Of a DNA stretch of 54,265 nucleotides, positions 11,573 through 48,248 are shown piece by piece; positions within the stretch are counted from its first letter, which is position 1; each line of letters begins with the position of its first letter. The position numbers and the translations under genes are program-made. The DNA comes from a virus, in the IMG/VR virus record IMGVR_UViG_3300048586_000088, positions 1 to 54,265 of that record; one strand, 5' to 3'. The notes beneath the pieces are model-generated. The model worked only from the letters and a program-made list of their open reading frames with translations, was not told the DNA's origin and searched no databases.

Positions 11573-11800
11573 TTACTTCGTTTTGGTGGGTTGCTCTTTC
11601 GTCGCCGCTTCGACCTGGGCCTTCACGCCCTGGCGGATCTCGGCGGGGATCATGGTGCGGCCGCTGCCCACCACGCGCTCCTCAAGTACCTCGAAGCGGC
11701 TCATCATGCCCTTGGCGCGGATGGCTTGCAGCCCTACCTCGTCCACGACATAGCGGTTGCCCGTCTTGATGTTCTGGATGGTGATAGCCTTGGTGCTCAT
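11573..11800 (-). CDS. Small head-region protein
   Basis: The protein has 75 residues and its ATG overlaps the preceding stop as ATGA. Its opening (TIQNIKTGNRYVVDEVG) resembles the start of the next upstream protein (LIQNIRNGSEKRVSARTW). The two may therefore share a small N-terminal fold by duplication. The C-terminus is Lys/Thr-rich. The function is unknown, and its location suggests a head-assembly or head-tail component. Confidence 0.65.
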   Translation of the reverse strand: MSTKAITIQNIKTGNRYVVDEVGLQAIRAKGMMSRFEVLEERVVGSGRTMIPAEIRQGVKAQVEAATKEQPTKTK

Positions 11801-18544: not shown

Positions 18545-18856
18545 TCAGTAGTCTTTAGTGGTCCAGTGAGTAACAGTGATCTTCTCCCCGTTGTCGAAGC
18601 TGCGCCAATGCCCGGCCTTGTCAACGTATGCCTTCGCAACAACGTGGTATGGATGCCCAACAGGAGGCGCGTCCGTCCGCCATACGCCGGGCCGCGAGTA
18701 CCACAGCGCCGTGAGGATGAACAGCCCCCATCCGACCCAGGCGATCAAGCCCAGGTTGCGAACGGTTGAGCGATGCGTGTTGATGCCCGCAGCCTTACGC
18801 TGCTCGGCGAGATCCTTGGCCGCTTGGGCCGCTTTCAGAATGTGGGGGTTTGCCAT
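18545..18856 (-). CDS. Single-pass membrane protein, first gene after an early promoter
   Basis: The protein has 103 residues: a basic amphipathic N-terminus, one transmembrane helix at about residues 33-55 (LGLIAWVGWGLFILTALWY), then a hydrophilic domain. It is the first gene behind the promoter at 18915-18886. Its leader reads CGTGACTGAAAC, then GAGCAACC directly before the ATG, so it carries both motifs complementary to the small RNA at 26.9 kb. The function is unknown. Confidence 0.75.
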   Translation of the reverse strand: MANPHILKAAQAAKDLAEQRKAAGINTHRSTVRNLGLIAWVGWGLFILTALWYSRPGVWRTDAPPVGHPYHVVAKAYVDKAGHWRSFDNGEKITVTHWTTKDY

Positions 18857-18885
18857 GGTTGCTCCATTTGGTTTCAGTCACGGGG

Positions 18886-22771: not shown

Positions 22772-23481
22772 CAGGGGCGAAGCCTTGCGGCCGGGGTATA
22801 GGTCACAGGATAGCGGCCAGAGGCGCTGAAGTGGAAGGTCGGGGATACGTTCCAGCGTTCGATCAGCCTGTAGCCGATCAGCCCCAGCGTCCGCGTCATT
22901 TCCGCCAAAACGTACTCGTCCCAGATCTCGATGAACAGTTCGGGCTTGTGCTTGGTGATCGTGCCCCATGCGCCCGCGACGGCCTCGGGCTCCATGCCTT
23001 CAACGTCCAGCTTGATCAGGCGGACATCCATGTTCGGCATTTGCTCCACTTGGCTGTCAATGGTCAGGATCAGGATCTCGCCTTCCTTGTCGGGCCGCAT
23101 TTCCCACTGGCAGTTCTTTCCCGTGCCACCGAGTTCGGCGGATACATTCTGCTCCCTGTCGCCTACGCCAGCCCTGACCGTCTGGACGTTTGTACTCTCA
23201 GCGCCCATCACATTCTTCCACAGCAGTATGTGGTTGCACGGCATCGGCTCGAACGCCAGCACCTTATCCGCCCACAGACTGAACGCAAGCGAATGGTTCC
23301 CCACGTTCGCCCCTGCGTCGATCCACAGACCGCCCCGAGGGATGTTCTTCTCGATCCAGTCCAGCATGTGCCACTCGCACAGGTCGCCCTGCTTGTATGT
23401 GGTCTCCATGATCTCGTCGTCCACCAGGATGTGGAAGTCGTGCCCGTATCGGCGGATGTGGTAGCTGCGTGGGTTGCTCAT
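22771..23481 (-). CDS. FkbM-family SAM-dependent methyltransferase
   Basis: The protein has 236 residues from ATG 23481 (MSNPRSYH). WIDAGANVGNHSLAF is the SAM-binding motif I, AFEPMP is motif II, and VRLIKLDVEGMEPEAV with FIEIWDEY completes the FkbM pattern. These enzymes often O-methylate sugars. The start region reads ATGAGCAACCC, one of the sequences complementary to the 26.9-kb RNA. Confidence 0.88.
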   Translation of the reverse strand: MSNPRSYHIRRYGHDFHILVDDEIMETTYKQGDLCEWHMLDWIEKNIPRGGLWIDAGANVGNHSLAFSLWADKVLAFEPMPCNHILLWKNVMGAESTNVQTVRAGVGDREQNVSAELGGTGKNCQWEMRPDKEGEILILTIDSQVEQMPNMDVRLIKLDVEGMEPEAVAGAWGTITKHKPELFIEIWDEYVLAEMTRTLGLIGYRLIERWNVSPTFHFSASGRYPVTYTPAARLRP

Positions 23482-23783
23482 GATGGAACCGTTATGAGGC
23501 GACCGCTTGCACGGATTGCAAATGATATGGTATCGCCGTCCGCTGGATTCTTGCCCGTGCCATCGCATCGGTCGCAATCCTTGCGGCCGGTCTCGTTCAT
23601 TTCGGGATAGTAGTCGTCCGGGTCAACCCCCTCCATCTCTAGCTCGTATGCCGCTTCGTCTGCGGGTGTGGCGTAGGTCACGAAGCCGAAGCCTCCGCAC
23701 TTGGCGCACATATCTTTCTTGACGTGCATCGAAACATCGTACGCAAGACCGGTCTTTTCGCTGGTGATGGTCTGGTTGCTCAT
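23478..23783 (-). CDS. Small protein with DnaJ-like zinc knuckles
   Basis: The protein has 101 residues with CAKCGGFGF around residue 26 and CDRCDGTGK around residue 70, two CxxCxGxG zinc-binding motifs of the DnaJ type without any J domain. The acidic middle is rich in Tyr and Asp. It overlaps both neighbours as ATGA. The function is unknown. Confidence 0.75.
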   Translation of the reverse strand: MSNQTITSEKTGLAYDVSMHVKKDMCAKCGGFGFVTYATPADEAAYELEMEGVDPDDYYPEMNETGRKDCDRCDGTGKNPADGDTISFAIRASGRLITVPS

Positions 23784-23932
23784 GTGCTTCGGATTATTGC
23801 CACGATCGAGATGATTATGGACGCTACCTGAATGGCCGTTATCAACAGGAATAGCCGTACGCTTTGGGCGAATGACTTGCGGCGCTCCTCAGCGGCAGCG
23901 GTATAGATTTCGTATGGGGTTGGGTTGCTCAT
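23780..23932 (-). CDS. Small membrane protein, 50 residues
   Basis: The ATG at 23932 overlaps the glycosyltransferase stop as ATGA and reads ATGAGCAACCC. One transmembrane helix spans residues 26-48 (LFLLITAIQVASIIISIVAII), following a charged N-terminus. The function is unknown. Confidence 0.65.
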   Translation of the reverse strand: MSNPTPYEIYTAAAEERRKSFAQSVRLFLLITAIQVASIIISIVAIIRST

Positions 23933-26894: not shown

Positions 26895-26908
26895 GGCTCA
26901 GGTTTCGA

Positions 26909-26937
26909 CGAATGTACCGGAAACAGCGAAGCCCCAA
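26909..26937 (-). promoter_or_regulatory. Promoter of the glycan-terminase operon
   Basis: The minus strand carries TTG, 18 bp and TACATTCG (26916-26909), 15 bp before the ATG at 26894. It overlaps the terminator of the small RNA upstream, so the operon is restarted independently. Confidence 0.6.
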
Positions 26938-27005
26938 TGAAGGGGCCTCGCGCGGTGCCAGGTGAGCAACCCTGCGAAACTCGTGACTGAAACGCGGGCA
27001 CCGGA
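26920..27005 (-). ncRNA. Candidate trans-acting small RNA with two anti-leader seeds
   Basis: The unit is about 85 nt with a consensus promoter (27039-27010), a closing stem GGTGCC/GGCACC (27002-26997 with 26959-26954), a large loop, then an intrinsic terminator. The loop carries GTTTCAGTCACG (26993-26982) and GGGTTGCTCA (26972-26963). The first is exactly complementary to the 5' leaders at 18.87, 30.83 and 42.78 kb. The second complements sequence at or just before the start codon of at least seven genes. No reading frame of useful length is present. Base pairing in trans is inferred. Confidence 0.75.
26926..26951 (-). terminator. Intrinsic terminator of the small RNA
   Basis: On the minus strand GCGAGGCCCC, a TTCATT loop and GGGGCTTCGC form a 10-bp stem with one G-U pair, followed by TGTTT. 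It lies between the small RNA body and the next promoter. Confidence 0.8.
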
Positions 27006-27009
27006 GGCG

Positions 27010-27039
27010 CAAATATAGGCGCAAGCGTTCATCGTGCAA
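27010..27039 (-). promoter_or_regulatory. Promoter of the small RNA
   Basis: The minus strand carries TTG (27039-27037), 19 bp and TATATTTG (27017-27010), identical in spacing and -7 box to the early promoters at 18.9 and 42.8 kb. The TTG lies within the last codons of the upstream helicase gene. Confidence 0.85.
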
Positions 27040-28708
27040 GTGCTGATTTACGCGGCATCGGTCTAGCGTCCATCGGTACGCCAGTCAGTATCCGCCCCTG
27101 GCTGTGAATGTGCCAGCCGCCTTCGTTGCTCAACTCCAAGTCCTCCACCTTCCCGAACTGCCGGAGGTTGCCGCCCATGTCGATGATCATGGTGTGGTCC
27201 TTGTCCGGGTGCGGACGAATGCCCCTGCCCACGATCTGATACCACAGCGCAAGGCTCATCGTCGGGCGGGCCATCACTACGGCCTCCAGTTCAGGATAGT
27301 CGAATCCGGTGGTCAAGATCCCGACGTTGCACACCACCTTGATCCATCCGTCGCGGAAGCCGCGAAGCACGCGCTCCCGTTCCTTGCTCGGCGTCTCGGC
27401 AGTAACGATGGCCGCGCCGGGGATCATGGCCGCCACGAACCGCGCCTCCTCCGTGAAGCGCGTGAACACCAGCACATTCTTTCGCCCGATCTCCAGCAGT
27501 CGCTTCACGACCGACACGACCTTGCCGTTGAAGTTCGCCAGCTTGTACTGCTCCCGGACGCTCCGGTCGGTGTAGTCCGCGCCAGTGCTGTTGCGCTGCA
27601 AGGCGTTCCGGTTGATCACGTTCACCTCGTGGTAGACCAGCTTCGCCAGGTAGCCAGCCTCGAACAGTTCGCGGTTCTGGACGTGGTACACGATCTCGTC
27701 GAACACGCGCGGCCGGGTCCGGGTCAGCATCTTCAACTCCGAGTACGTCTCGTAGGTCACCGGGTTGCTGCCCTGTGAAAGGCGATAAGGCGTGGCTGTA
27801 AGGCCAAGGACCGGGACGTTCATGTGCTCCAATACCTCCGCATACATCGGCAGCTTCTCCCCGACCACTCGGCTGTGCTTGTCGCGGATCAGGTTGGCCT
27901 TGGCCGAAACGAGGTGGCATTCGTCCACGAGCACGTACTTGAACCGCTCCAGCAGGTGCTTCTTCCGCACTACGCTCCCGATCGTGGCGAAGGTCACGTC
28001 CCGAAGGTTCTTTTCACCAGCCGATGCGCTGTAGACCCCGCAGCCGTACCCGTAGCTGCGGTATTTAGCCGCGTTCTGCTCCAGGATCTCCTTGGACGGC
28101 TGGAACACGAGCGTAGGTGCGCCGAGTGCTTTGACTATGCCCGCGATCACCAAGCTCTTGCCGCTGTTGTGGTGAACGGTGAAGTCTTCCGTCAGGTACA
28201 GGTGATCTCCGTCGAGCGTGAATCCGTAGAATTCATCCTCCTCCATTTCTTCAACCATGAAGCCGTAGTACTTGGTTCCATTCTTCGTGTTCATCAGGAA
28301 GGCTCGACCAGCCCAGTGTGCAGCGTCTTTGATCCATTCGCGCACCTTCATATGGCACTCGCCTCCGTAATCGCCCCACAGGGCCAGCACGTGGTCGCCG
28401 TTTACAATGAACGGAGGTGGGCATTCTTCTTCGTTGGGATTGCGGGGGGTGATCCGATACATGGTATCGCGCCCTACGCAAAGGTTGAGCACGGTTCGCG
28501 GCTCAATTCCCCAAGGGCTGCGCAGCATGTCGCCGTCCTCTATGTCCTCAACCGCCTTGGTGGTCATGTCTGCCATCAGTATGCGCGTGCCCTTGGCGTG
28601 GCATCCGGTCGGAAGCATCACCAGCCCGTTCTTCCCGCGCGTAGTGCGCAGGAATTCCACGGACCTGTCAACGGCCTCCTGCTGGTATGGGCGTAGCGTG
28701 AACGACAT
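27029..28708 (-). CDS. DEAD/DEAH-box helicase interrupted by a mini-intein
   Basis: The precursor has 559 residues. After splicing, the 413-residue protein would read LRPYQQEAVDRSVEFL, then a Walker A loop rebuilt from LPTG and SGKS, then YVLVDECHLV (DECH box), LGLTATPYRL and VGRGIRPHPDK (motif VI). It is a superfamily 2 helicase of the ResIII type common in phage replication and recombination modules. The intein sits inside the ATP-binding loop, so the enzyme should be inactive until splicing. Confidence 0.92.
   Translation of the reverse strand: MSFTLRPYQQEAVDRSVEFLRTTRGKNGLVMLPTGCHAKGTRILMADMTTKAVEDIEDGDMLRSPWGIEPRTVLNLCVGRDTMYRITPRNPNEEECPPPFIVNGDHVLALWGDYGGECHMKVREWIKDAAHWAGRAFLMNTKNGTKYYGFMVEEMEEDEFYGFTLDGDHLYLTEDFTVHHNSGKSLVIAGIVKALGAPTLVFQPSKEILEQNAAKYRSYGYGCGVYSASAGEKNLRDVTFATIGSVVRKKHLLERFKYVLVDECHLVSAKANLIRDKHSRVVGEKLPMYAEVLEHMNVPVLGLTATPYRLSQGSNPVTYETYSELKMLTRTRPRVFDEIVYHVQNRELFEAGYLAKLVYHEVNVINRNALQRNSTGADYTDRSVREQYKLANFNGKVVSVVKRLLEIGRKNVLVFTRFTEEARFVAAMIPGAAIVTAETPSKERERVLRGFRDGWIKVVCNVGILTTGFDYPELEAVVMARPTMSLALWYQIVGRGIRPHPDKDHTMIIDMGGNLRQFGKVEDLELSNEGGWHIHSQGRILTGVPMDARPMPRKSALAR
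28166..28603 (-). mobile_element. Mini-intein (146 residues) in Walker A loop
   Basis: Residues 36-181 of the helicase precursor. It starts with Cys and block A (CHAKGTRILMADM), has block B-like GDHVLAL and ends with block F (HLYLTEDFTV) and block G (HHN), followed by the +1 Ser of SGKS. It is too short for a homing endonuclease, so it is a splicing-only mini-intein. The catalytic Cys1, terminal Asn and +1 Ser are all present, so it should be active. Confidence 0.93.
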
Positions 28709-29117: not shown

Positions 29118-29121
29118 TGTT

Positions 29122-29475
29122 TCAGTCTTTAATTGATTGGCACTCGGTGATGTCGTAACGCTTTTCAACGGTTGGTGTCTTAATCACCAGCGCCAGATTT
29201 GTTCCGTAGTACCCGTTGTTCCATCCATGTGCGGGTACTCGTACAACGTGCCCATGAACAGGAATCAACTCAATTCCATATCCCTCAACTTTTCGGAAGA
29301 ACACATCGCCAGACAGGTCGAACTCCAGGCCATCGAAGTCATCAACCTTGACATCGGAAAGTGTAAGCGAATGTCTTTCGCAACAGTCTTGATCGTGGAA
29401 GGACGAAAGGGTTGACCCATCATCGAACACAATCTCCTCGCTGGTCACTTTTACTACTTTTCTATTGGTGATCAT
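29122..29475 (-). CDS. DUF7448-like small protein
   Basis: The protein has 117 residues. It contains HDQDCCERHSL, the D-CCE-H signature of a small family (DUF7448-like) that recurs in phages of Bacteroidota. The function is not known to me. The leader again ends GACTGAAACG before ATG 29475, so this gene and its downstream neighbour share a control element. Confidence 0.75.
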   Translation of the reverse strand: MITNRKVVKVTSEEIVFDDGSTLSSFHDQDCCERHSLTLSDVKVDDFDGLEFDLSGDVFFRKVEGYGIELIPVHGHVVRVPAHGWNNGYYGTNLALVIKTPTVEKRYDITECQSIKD

Positions 29476-29666
29476 CGTTTCAGTCTTTGCGCCCTCAGCC
29501 AGTCAAGCCAGGCGGGCAAGGTTAGTTCTTCAGGTCGTTCGATCGTGCCCGTGCGCGGCCTCCGTAGCGGGCCAACGCGCCTCCGGTAGTCTGCTGCCCG
29601 CTGCGCCTCGCTGGCGAAGCAGTAGCGGCCAAGCCGGATCAGGACCGGCGCTTCCTCGGGGCGCAT
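29472..29666 (-). CDS. Hypothetical basic protein
   Basis: The protein has 64 residues from ATG 29666, a start inside the preceding gene. It is Arg-rich, with GTIERPEELTLPAWLDWLRAQ at the C-terminus. The end overlaps the next start. I recognise no family. Confidence 0.55.
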   Translation of the reverse strand: MRPEEAPVLIRLGRYCFASEAQRAADYRRRVGPLRRPRTGTIERPEELTLPAWLDWLRAQRLKR

Positions 29667-30329: not shown

Positions 30330-30414
30330 GGGTTGCTCAATTTTGAAGTCGGTCCAGCCCGCGCCCTTGCAACTTAAATGACTATGGGGGCGCGGGTCTG
30401 GCCGATGGGTTGGT

Positions 30415-30818: not shown

Positions 30819-30843
30819 GTCGTTGTTCGTTTCAGTCACGGAA

Positions 30844-32896: not shown

Positions 32897-33249
32897 GGGT
32901 GTTGGGGTGGATTTGGGTTGCTCTGTACTCGTGGGGTATTGGCAGCGATAGCCGCCTTGATGAATTGCGCGGTGACCTCCAAGTTCAGGTGCTTGGGCTG
33001 AACGCGGATCAGCAGCCATCCCATGGCGGCCGCGTAGTTCGCCTTCTCGTGGTCCTTGGCGATGCCAGCGCCGCGGCCGTGCTTGCCGCCCGTGAAGATC
33101 CCGCCATCGACCTCCAAGGCCACGCGGTACTGCGGCCAGGCGTAGTCGAAGCGCCACTTGCGTACAGCGTGGAAGCGATGCTCCGTAACCGGCTCAGGTA
33201 TGCCGCGCACCTTGCACGCAGCGAAGAAGACGTGGTTCGGCTTGCTCAT
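32893..33249 (-). CDS. PD-(D/E)XK-type endonuclease
   Basis: The protein has 118 residues. WRFDYAWPQYRVALEVDGG gives the D...E-x-D pattern of a restriction-type nuclease core, followed by HGRGAGIAKDHEKANYAAAMGWLLIRV. This matches a family of small phage nucleases related to VSR/DUF559 or Holliday-junction-resolvase-like enzymes. It probably processes recombination or replication intermediates. The start MSKPNHVF overlaps the previous stop as ATGA. Confidence 0.82.
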   Translation of the reverse strand: MSKPNHVFFAACKVRGIPEPVTEHRFHAVRKWRFDYAWPQYRVALEVDGGIFTGGKHGRGAGIAKDHEKANYAAAMGWLLIRVQPKHLNLEVTAQFIKAAIAANTPRVQSNPNPPQHP

Positions 33250-33497
33250 CGTCCGAACAGGGTCTTGCGAACGTTCACCAGCTTCTCGGGCACGATGTTG
33301 TTGATGTGGGCATGATGCGCCCGGCACCACTCCACTACGCGATCGTCATTCGCGTGCGGGTTCTCGATCAGGAACTGCTCGGCTACTTCGCAGCTTTGGA
33401 TCATGGCCTTGTAGTCGGTGCGCTTGCTCCAGCCGTTCGCGATCATGCGGCGGCGGTTGCGGACGTGGATATCCAGGGTTTGTCGGGTTGTGATCAT
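33246..33497 (-). CDS. Hypothetical protein with GAGCAACCC leader
   Basis: The protein has 83 residues from ATG 33497; GAGCAACCC lies directly before it. It is basic at the start (TLDIHVRNRRRMIANGW) with a CRAHH segment in the middle. The function is unknown. Confidence 0.65.
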   Translation of the reverse strand: MITTRQTLDIHVRNRRRMIANGWSKRTDYKAMIQSCEVAEQFLIENPHANDDRVVEWCRAHHAHINNIVPEKLVNVRKTLFGR

Positions 33498-33670
33498 GGG
33501 TTGCTCGTTGTGTGATTCCATCCAAGGTTCCAAAGCTGCCAGTCGTGGCTCCCGTACTCGTATGGGTTCGGCAGGCTGTCAAATACCTCGACATTCGGGT
33601 TGGCGTTGTAGGTCTTTCCTGCCGATACGCCTTCAAGGTATGCGGCGGACGCGAAGTCTTCGGTGATCAT
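33494..33670 (-). CDS. Ribosome-modulation-factor-like small protein
   Basis: The protein has 58 residues. AYLEGVSAGKTYNANP, then LPNPYEYGSHDWQLWNLGW, follow the G-x-x-x-A-G ... NPY-x-x-G ... W-x-x-G-W pattern of RMF/CrpP-type small proteins. Such proteins modulate ribosomes or, as CrpP, have other proposed roles. The similarity is clear in layout but short. Confidence 0.6.
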   Translation of the reverse strand: MITEDFASAAYLEGVSAGKTYNANPNVEVFDSLPNPYEYGSHDWQLWNLGWNHTTSNP

Positions 33671-34266: not shown

Positions 34267-34280
34267 CGGGTTGCTCGTGT

Positions 34281-41218: not shown

Positions 41219-42138
41219 CAGTTCTCAGGTGTTACGCCGACTTTCCGCAGCATCGTCCGCCAGAACTCCGGGTCAACCCGGTTGCTCAACGCGAAGGCAG
41301 CCGCCTCCTTCTTGATCGCCGCCTTGTCCTCCCCAGCGTATTCCTTGAAGGCGTCCCGGAACTGGTCCTGCAAGTCCTTCGCCACGCCCTCAGCAGCCGT
41401 CACCGGCGCCGCCGTCTGCGACCCGCTGGTGTAGTCCTCGTTGTCCATCTCGATCGCCTTGGCCAGCTTCTCGAACCGGCTGGACTTCGGCAGGTGCTTC
41501 GTGTGGCGCTTCAGGACCGTCTTGCGGGCCATCTCCTCGGGGTCCGTATCCCAAGGCGACGAGCGGCCCGCTTTGACGCTCTCGCTGCGTCCCTTGATAC
41601 CGTCTATCTCCTGCTTACTCATGATCTCGAAGTGCTTGGATCCGTCCGCCAGGGTCGCCAAGCTGTACACGGCCACCATGTCGCCCTTGGGCAGCCCGCG
41701 CATCATGTAGGGCGTATGGCGCAGCACCTTCCGATCGCTGGCCATGTCGATCTCGCACTCGTCGCCCTTGTATACGGGGTGGCATTCGATGGACCGGACC
41801 GATCCGGTATCCGTCAGCAGCTTCACCAGCCCCATGTAGGAAGGCTCCAGCACGCAGACCGTCTTCCCTGCCTTGCGGCGCGGGATCAAGTACGCCAGCT
41901 TCATCGTTGGGTTCAGCGTCAGTCCGCTGTCGGCCAGGTTCATCAAGGCCTGGATCTTGCTCTCTGGCGTCGATCCGGCGAGGTAGTCGTTGCCCTCGAA
42001 GATCTGCATAGCGAAGGCAGCCTCCTTGATGAAGTTCTCCTCGTTCGCCAGTCGGGCGAAGTGCTCTCGGGCCGGGGCGAATAGTTCCACCGCCTTGTTC
42101 TGTTGCGCGGGTTGAACCGCTGTCGTCGGGTTGCTCAT
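41218..42138 (-). CDS. recT: RecT-family ssDNA-annealing protein
   Basis: The protein has 306 residues. ALMNLADSGLTLNP, LAYLIPRRKAGKTVCVLEPSYMG and SPWDTDPEEMARKTVLKRHTKHLP are the conserved RecT blocks. The start reads ATGAGCAACCC, a sequence complementary to the small RNA seed. It anneals single strands made by the exonuclease gene downstream. Confidence 0.94.
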   Translation of the reverse strand: MSNPTTAVQPAQQNKAVELFAPAREHFARLANEENFIKEAAFAMQIFEGNDYLAGSTPESKIQALMNLADSGLTLNPTMKLAYLIPRRKAGKTVCVLEPSYMGLVKLLTDTGSVRSIECHPVYKGDECEIDMASDRKVLRHTPYMMRGLPKGDMVAVYSLATLADGSKHFEIMSKQEIDGIKGRSESVKAGRSSPWDTDPEEMARKTVLKRHTKHLPKSSRFEKLAKAIEMDNEDYTSGSQTAAPVTAAEGVAKDLQDQFRDAFKEYAGEDKAAIKKEAAAFALSNRVDPEFWRTMLRKVGVTPEN

Positions 42139-42775: not shown

Positions 42776-42798
42776 GTTGCAATGTTTCAGTCACGGCA

Positions 42799-47961: not shown

Positions 47962-48248
47962 GCCTTTGTCAGCCTTAGTTGAATGATGATGCCCGCTGCC
48001 ATTGCCGCCACGAGCCAGTATTCCCAAGTATCCGTGCTTCCGATGTTGCTCCCGGTGAACTCCTGCTGCGCCTGGGTGCTGAACCACACGGCCCCCATCA
48101 GCGCGGTGGGCTTCATCCGAGGAGCCGCCCACGCCATTGCTACCAGACACAGCAGTGCCTTGGAAACCTCCGAAAGTGCGAGATAGATCAGCCATTTGCG
48201 TTCGTTGTCGAATGTATCGGGAAGCACGATATGTACCTCCGTCAGCAT
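47958..48248 (-). CDS. Small membrane protein upstream of holin
   Basis: The protein has 96 residues from ATG 48248 (MLTEVHIVLPD). Two transmembrane segments: LIYLALSEVSKALLCLVAMAW and YWLVAAMAAGIIIQLRL. It overlaps the holin start as ATGA, so it may be an antiholin or a second holin. That is inferred from place and topology only. Confidence 0.6.
   Translation of the reverse strand: MLTEVHIVLPDTFDNERKWLIYLALSEVSKALLCLVAMAWAAPRMKPTALMGAVWFSTQAQQEFTGSNIGSTDTWEYWLVAAMAAGIIIQLRLTKA

Follow-up and report, generated by a model that had tools for sequence, protein, structure and literature searches.

The question raised by the segment between positions 27005 and 26920 on the minus strand is whether it encodes a small RNA and, if so, on which genes of the same phage that RNA would act. 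The window analysed is the whole of a 54,265-base IMG/VR virus record with a GC content of 60%, in which the recognisable genes are all on the minus strand and include those for terminase, a portal-like protein, the tape-measure protein, RecT, an exonuclease, DnaB, a helicase and a NinB-type protein. Matches of the terminase include phages of Bacteroides, Flavobacterium and Cellulophaga and, given the presence of promoters of the form TTG-N19-TAnnTTTG, a host in the Bacteroidota is likely, albeit inferred.

The promoter of the putative small RNA (TTGCACGATGAACGCTTGCGCCTATATTTG) is an exact TTG-N19-TAnnTTTG sequence located where the helicase gene (27029-28708, minus strand) has its 3' end. This form is close to the published Bacteroidota consensus (PMC7366714), and a pattern scan restricted to the 19-nt spacer found five such sites in the window, every one of them on the minus strand. 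No plausible reading frame was found within 27005-26920. A plus-strand frame starting with GTG at 26962 (about 19 codons) was weighed and discarded: it has no promoter ahead, and the two seeds described below are its sole notable content. Comparison to the Rfam families gave no match at gathering score, nor in a permissive scan of 26900-27060, in which CRISPR-DR35, the hairpin ribozyme and Xoo5 came up far under their cut-offs and were rejected.

The predicted fold of the segment is more stable than that of shuffled sequences (z -2.5; -40 kcal/mol in a 91-nt piece). An outer stem, found in both the minimum-energy and the centroid fold, encloses the two seeds, each of which lies in its own weak hairpin in the minimum-energy fold and not in one open loop. 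The letters AGTCAC and GTTGCTCA are predicted to form the largely unpaired loops of these two hairpins, the seeds being partly tied up in weak 3-bp helices. The GC-rich 3' hairpin is not called by an intrinsic-terminator scan because the T tract that follows it is short and poor, and for the same reason the 3' end is less certain than had been stated before. It remains possible that this hairpin is an intrinsic terminator, perhaps one common to the upstream helicase operon. As regards what is expected of the locus of a trans-acting small RNA, the promoter is clear, the 3' hairpin is clear and the T tract is weak; transcription itself is inferred, as there are no expression data.

The first-pass annotation had described here a TTG-N19 promoter, an RNA of about 85 nt without a useful reading frame, an intrinsic terminator and one loop holding both complementary segments. 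The promoter held, and so did the anatomy and the lack of a frame (with a length of about 86 nt, expression being inferred). The terminator held in part only, its 10-bp hairpin being real but its T tract poor and not called by the scan, and the single loop was not borne out.

The 5' arm and loop of the 3' hairpin recur as a 15-nt copy in the same sense (AGGCCCCTTCATTGG) at 18026-18012 on the minus strand, downstream of the 18543 gene.

Table 1. Coordinates of the putative small RNA, its elements and its predicted target sites. Genes are named by the position of their ATG.
Feature	Position	Strand	Remarks
Small-RNA promoter	27010-27039	-	TTG at 27039-27037, 19-nt spacer, TATATTTG at 27017-27010
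Putative small RNA	26920-27005	-	About 86 nt; both ends inferred, the 5' one from the spacing to the promoter and the 3' one from the hairpin
Outer stem, 5' arm	26997-27003	-	CGGTGCC; minimum-energy and centroid fold
Outer stem, 3' arm	26953-26959	-	GGCACCG; minimum-energy and centroid fold
Seed 1	26982-26993	-	GTTTCAGTCACG; complements CGTGACTGAAAC exactly in three promoter-proximal leaders
Seed 2	26963-26972	-	GGGTTGCTCA; complementary to (T)GAGCAACCC, which is more enriched at starts than any other 9-mer of the genome
3' hairpin	26926-26951	-	GCGAGGCCCC-TTCATT-GGGGCTTCGC; 10 bp, GC-rich, by fold; then TGTTTCC
Seed-1 target, 5' end of 42775 operon	42784-42795	-	12-nt match, -20 to -9 of the ATG, 3 nt after TATATTTG
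Seed-1 target, 5' end of 30818 operon	30828-30840	-	13-nt match after TAGGTTTG
Seed-1 target, 5' end of 18856 operon	18871-18882	-	12-nt exact match
Seed-2 match at 18856 gene	18857-18864	-	8-nt match GAGCAACC, directly ahead of the ATG
Seed-1 target, 29475	29476-29485	-	10-nt match directly before the ATG
Seed-1 target, 29117	29119-29127	-	9-nt match just ahead of the ATG
Seed-2 target, recT (42138)	42128-42137	-	10-nt match over the start codon; RecT by Pfam and PHROGs
Seed-2 target, 34266 (phrog_874 protein)	34268-34276	-	9-nt match just ahead of the ATG
Seed-2 target, 33497	33498-33506	-	9-nt match directly before the ATG
Seed-2 target, 32896	32915-32923	-	9-nt match, 27 to 19 nt ahead of the ATG
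Seed-2 target, 30329	30330-30339	-	10-nt match directly before the ATG
Seed-2 target, 23932	23922-23931	-	10-nt match over the ATG
Seed-2 target, 23783	23774-23782	-	9-nt match over the ATG; newly found
Seed-2 target, FkbM-type methyltransferase (23481)	23471-23480	-	10-nt match over the start; Methyltransf_21
Seed-2 target, 11571	11588-11596	-	9-nt match, 25 to 17 nt ahead of the ATG; newly found

Evidence that this segment is linked to other genes of the phage comes from a census of the 9-mers present at 67 gene starts (-40 to +14), which was made blind to the small RNA. Apart from the ATGAGCA start consensus, the census was led by GAGCAACCC (8 genes) and GACTGAAAC (5 genes), and all minus-strand copies of these two motifs in the genome are near starts (8/8 and 5/5, respectively). 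The sole other frequent class of 9-mers, CATGAGCA, represents the Met-Ser start that is common here. The exact complements of the two leading motifs are both found inside the single 86-nt segment. Matches of at least 9 nt to the seed-bearing region (small-RNA positions 12-43) occur at 14 of the 67 starts and in 1 of 1,699 other same-strand windows. Because the list of 67 genes contained six start positions that had been moved or added after the motif was seen, the test was rerun on the unedited coding-score gene list, whose calls are blind to the motif; matches were found at 8 of 62 starts versus 7 of 1,723 other windows (p=7e-9). Out of fifteen distinct matches to this region on the coding strand, fourteen are near a start, the exception being 41288 within recT. 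When the whole segment is considered, fifteen starts are matched at 9 nt or more, which is the highest value of all same-strand 86-nt segments (next 8, mean 1.0). High-scoring segments on the plus strand were rejected, as they overlap the motif-bearing start sites and read them in antisense. In four control phages of Bacteroidota, no segment was comparable, apart from A/T-rich matches or maxima that were weaker. Finally, the predicted accessibility of the target sites is higher than that of the same positions in other genes (0.60 versus 0.48, p=0.008). Pairing energies, computed either by gapped hybridisation or as an ungapped helix, failed to tell target starts from the others in this genome of 60% GC and were dropped, so that the evidence rests on the recurrence and position of exact matches.

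One alternative is that the matches are due to chance or are a by-product of start-codon bias, ATGAGC being common in this genome. In its favour, the frequency of ATGAGCA starts makes part of a seed-2 match cheap, and the thermodynamic scores do not discriminate. Against it, start windows permuted by column, which keep the bias, gave a mean of 1.2 and never more than 6 matched genes in 2,000 trials, versus the 15 observed for the whole 86 nt, which rules out the start-codon consensus as the cause; moreover, GACTGAAAC and GAGCAACCC-ATG are unrelated to ATGAGC. We regard this explanation as all but excluded. The complementarity is non-random and far beyond chance, it is limited to one strand and it is located at starts.

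The complement of seed 1, CGTGACTGAAAC, is present as an exact match on the minus strand at 18882-18871, 30840-30829 and 42795-42784. In all three leaders it begins 2-3 nt past a TAnnTTTG box, that is at or near the predicted transcript start. Two further seed-1 sites are at internal starts, one of which belongs to a gene (29475) whose product is DUF7448-like, slightly under the Pfam cut-off. The position of the three leader copies directly after promoters could speak for the motifs being DNA sites, such as operators or parts of promoters, which happen to occur in both orientations. This is very unlikely, since eleven of the fourteen sites are at start codons or in leaders without a recognisable promoter ahead, and on the plus strand the full motifs are confined to the two copies within the small RNA.

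The three promoters with seed-1 leaders (42828, 30873 and 18915, minus strand) have in common the sequence GTTGYAATTSnGAAAG around the -33 element, possibly an operator or an activator site. The promoter of the small RNA is without this sequence, and the RNA may therefore be timed differently from its targets.

Seed 2 has exact TGAGCAACCC matches at 42137, 23931, 23480 and 30339. Its sites fall in two main registers (ATGAGCAACCC and GAGCAACCC-ATG), either over the start codon (42138 recT, 23932, 23783 and 23481) or ahead of it, be it directly (34266, 33497 and 30329) or at some distance (32896 at -27 and 11571 at -25). As the register varies from -27 to +2 relative to the ATG, a simple start-codon consensus cannot explain the seed-2 matches, and a ribosome-binding element is disfavoured as well. 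Taking both seeds together, nine of the fourteen sites overlap the ATG or begin at most 10 nt ahead of it, and the sites are spread over the greater part of the gene array (42775, 42138, 34266, 33497, 32896; 30818, 30329, 29475, 29117; 23932, 23783, 23481; 18856; 11571). A Pfam scan detected no antirepressor among the targets, several of which are without any annotation.

The recurrence of the motifs at starts is also what would be expected of cis elements, either enhancers of translation or RNA sites bound by a protein, in which case 26920-27005 would be a titrating or antisense remnant and no regulator. This explanation does not predict that exact complements of both motifs should be found 9 nt apart in a promoter-driven noncoding segment. 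A decoy for a protein should carry the same strand as the sites, and the locus carries the complement, which argues against an RNA-binding-protein decoy; the variable position of seed 2 is likewise unlike that of a ribosome-binding element. We consider the cis-element explanation very unlikely.

With respect to the targets proposed in the first-pass annotation, the exact 12-nt matches of seed 1 to the three leaders held (the one at 30840 actually being 13 nt), as did the nine-base match before 29117, while that before 29475 is actually 10 nt. The seed-2 matches at recT (42138), the FkbM gene (23481), 23932 and 30329 were confirmed as exact, and the nine-base ones at 33497, 34266 and upstream of 32896 were found as described. 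The presence of both motifs at 18856 held in part, the seed-2 match there being only 8 nt. The list was incomplete, as it lacked two 9-nt matches, one covering the start of 23783 and one located 25 nt upstream of 11571. A control against shuffled sequence had been called for, and the permuted windows described above show that the matches beat it. The reading as a trans-acting regulator is supported as to its kind, because unbiased tests upheld the complementarity, its placement at starts and at the 5' ends of leaders, and the anatomy of promoter, stem and hairpin. The claim that it coordinates several early operons is too narrow as to targets, since the terminase/glycosyltransferase block contributes three (23932, 23783 and 23481) and a further one is 11571; early timing and coordination are not established.

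Short antisense matches to several unlinked mRNAs, above chance and concentrated at translation starts, are a criterion of trans-acting base-pairing small RNAs, and this criterion is met. We favour such an RNA because it is the sole reading found that explains why both of the most start-restricted 9-mers have complements in one noncoding 86-nt segment. The segment 27005-26920 is thus likely to encode a two-seed antisense RNA of the phage which blocks the translation of selected cistrons in several transcription units, with transcription, ends, pairing, repression and role all being inferred. According to this model, the RNA would be transcribed from its own host-type promoter, the outer stem would present the two antisense seeds, and the GC-rich hairpin would form the end. 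Seed 1 would pair in trans with the first nucleotides of the three promoter-proximal leaders and with the two internal starts, and seed 2 with nine start regions across several transcription units. In the duplex, the start codon and the nucleotides around it would most likely be inaccessible to the ribosome, possibly alongside RNase III or 5'-end effects, and the expression of the marked cistrons would be lowered as a group. The physiological role may be the shut-off of part of the programme or the control of stoichiometry. A regulator acting post-transcriptionally on polycistronic messages would need tags at internal cistrons as well as in leaders, as is seen here.

It could also be that a genuine RNA does pair with these sites, yet activates or stabilises its targets, shielding 5' ends or opening structured starts for joint expression. 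In support of this, seed 1 is placed so as to cover the 5'-terminal nucleotides of three mRNAs, where pairing could protect the 5' end. Against it, a duplex at the nine sites on or close to the ATG would hinder initiation, and the target sites are predicted to be already open. Activation is therefore unlikely, and repression is inferred to be the likelier outcome. A bolder form of the repressor reading, towards which we lean by a narrow margin, is that this one RNA is a master post-transcriptional regulator and that about fourteen cistron starts in most transcription units evolved one of its two tags and are shut down together.

Among known systems, the c4 antisense RNA of P1 and P7 has complementary stretches in loops, pairs around ribosome-binding sites and blocks translation of phage mRNA (PMC12197685); the family (RF01695) is known from Proteobacteria and their phages (PMC2864571). 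The putative RNA described here resembles it in being a small structured phage-encoded RNA with seeds in loops and complementarity, in our case only predicted, around the starts of phage mRNAs. It differs in having about fourteen targets in several transcription units, whereas c4 controls one ant operon, and in its Bacteroidota-type promoter. The RF01695 covariance model gave no match at gathering score, nor permissively in 26900-27060; a direct search of the family also gave none, which is weak by itself as the controls were silent too. A direct precedent for the mode of action is GibS of Bacteroides thetaiotaomicron, an intergenic small RNA in which two adjacent seed regions pair with the start-codon regions of targets (PMC7366714). 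Unlike the RNA of the window, GibS is chromosomal, has 145 nt, an open 5' seed and few metabolic targets. VpdS of phage VP882 is likewise a phage-encoded small RNA acting on phage mRNAs, in addition to host mRNAs (PMC12197685), but it is Hfq-dependent and found in Vibrio. P22 sar, lambda OOP and STnc6030 are phage or prophage antisense RNAs which repress phage mRNAs, with one main target each (PMC12197685). Each of them is encoded opposite that target, whereas the RNA of the window lies apart from its many targets.

A search of viral and genome collections, which may omit near relatives, turned up no relative carrying the small-RNA locus. For the helicase, the closest relatives reach 52% identity at best and belong to phages of about 57-68% GC whose loci are without such promoters. 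Single-protein scans with terminase, DnaB and portal detected no relatives, the DnaB alignment reaching only about 36% identity, and DNA pattern searches with the seeds, with leader plus promoter and with the shared promoter element returned nothing or chance matches in unrelated sequence.

The kind of regulator, a phage-encoded antisense RNA, is already known; what is unusual is the number of genes of its own phage that it matches, the direction and timing of regulation not being established. Most characterised phage antisense RNAs control one gene (PMC12197685), and control of many genes by one RNA is well documented in bacteria but hardly at such a scale for a phage's own genes. If our reading is true, a single phage RNA with about fourteen tagged starts in its own genome makes RNA a global regulator of the phage programme, and it does so in hosts where the usual small-RNA chaperones may be missing, Bacteroides at least having no obvious Hfq or ProQ homologue (PMC7366714). 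A search of the open-access literature turned up no comparable multi-target self-regulating phage RNA in Bacteroidota; as far as this weak evidence of novelty goes, the RNA would have no described predecessor among the phages of Bacteroidota. The census approach, in which start-restricted k-mers are collected first and their complements are then checked for clustering in one noncoding segment, needs no relatives and is applicable to any phage genome.

Other noncoding or promoter-like features were observed in the window. At 12994-12403 on the minus strand, beside the portal region, there is a promoter (TTG-N19-TATGTTTG) and, downstream of it, a stretch of about 590 nt that holds no convincing gene. 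Part of this stretch (12955-12660) folds much better than shuffles (z -4.0) and has no Rfam match, which makes it a possible candidate for a large structured noncoding RNA. Another noncoding-looking stretch interrupts the otherwise dense gene array at 17735-17330 (minus strand). The sequence TACATTCG occurs only three times on either strand, at 48216, 26916 and 12380 (minus strand), in each case 21-26 nt ahead of an ATG (48195, 26894 and 12354, respectively), and may represent a second class of promoters.
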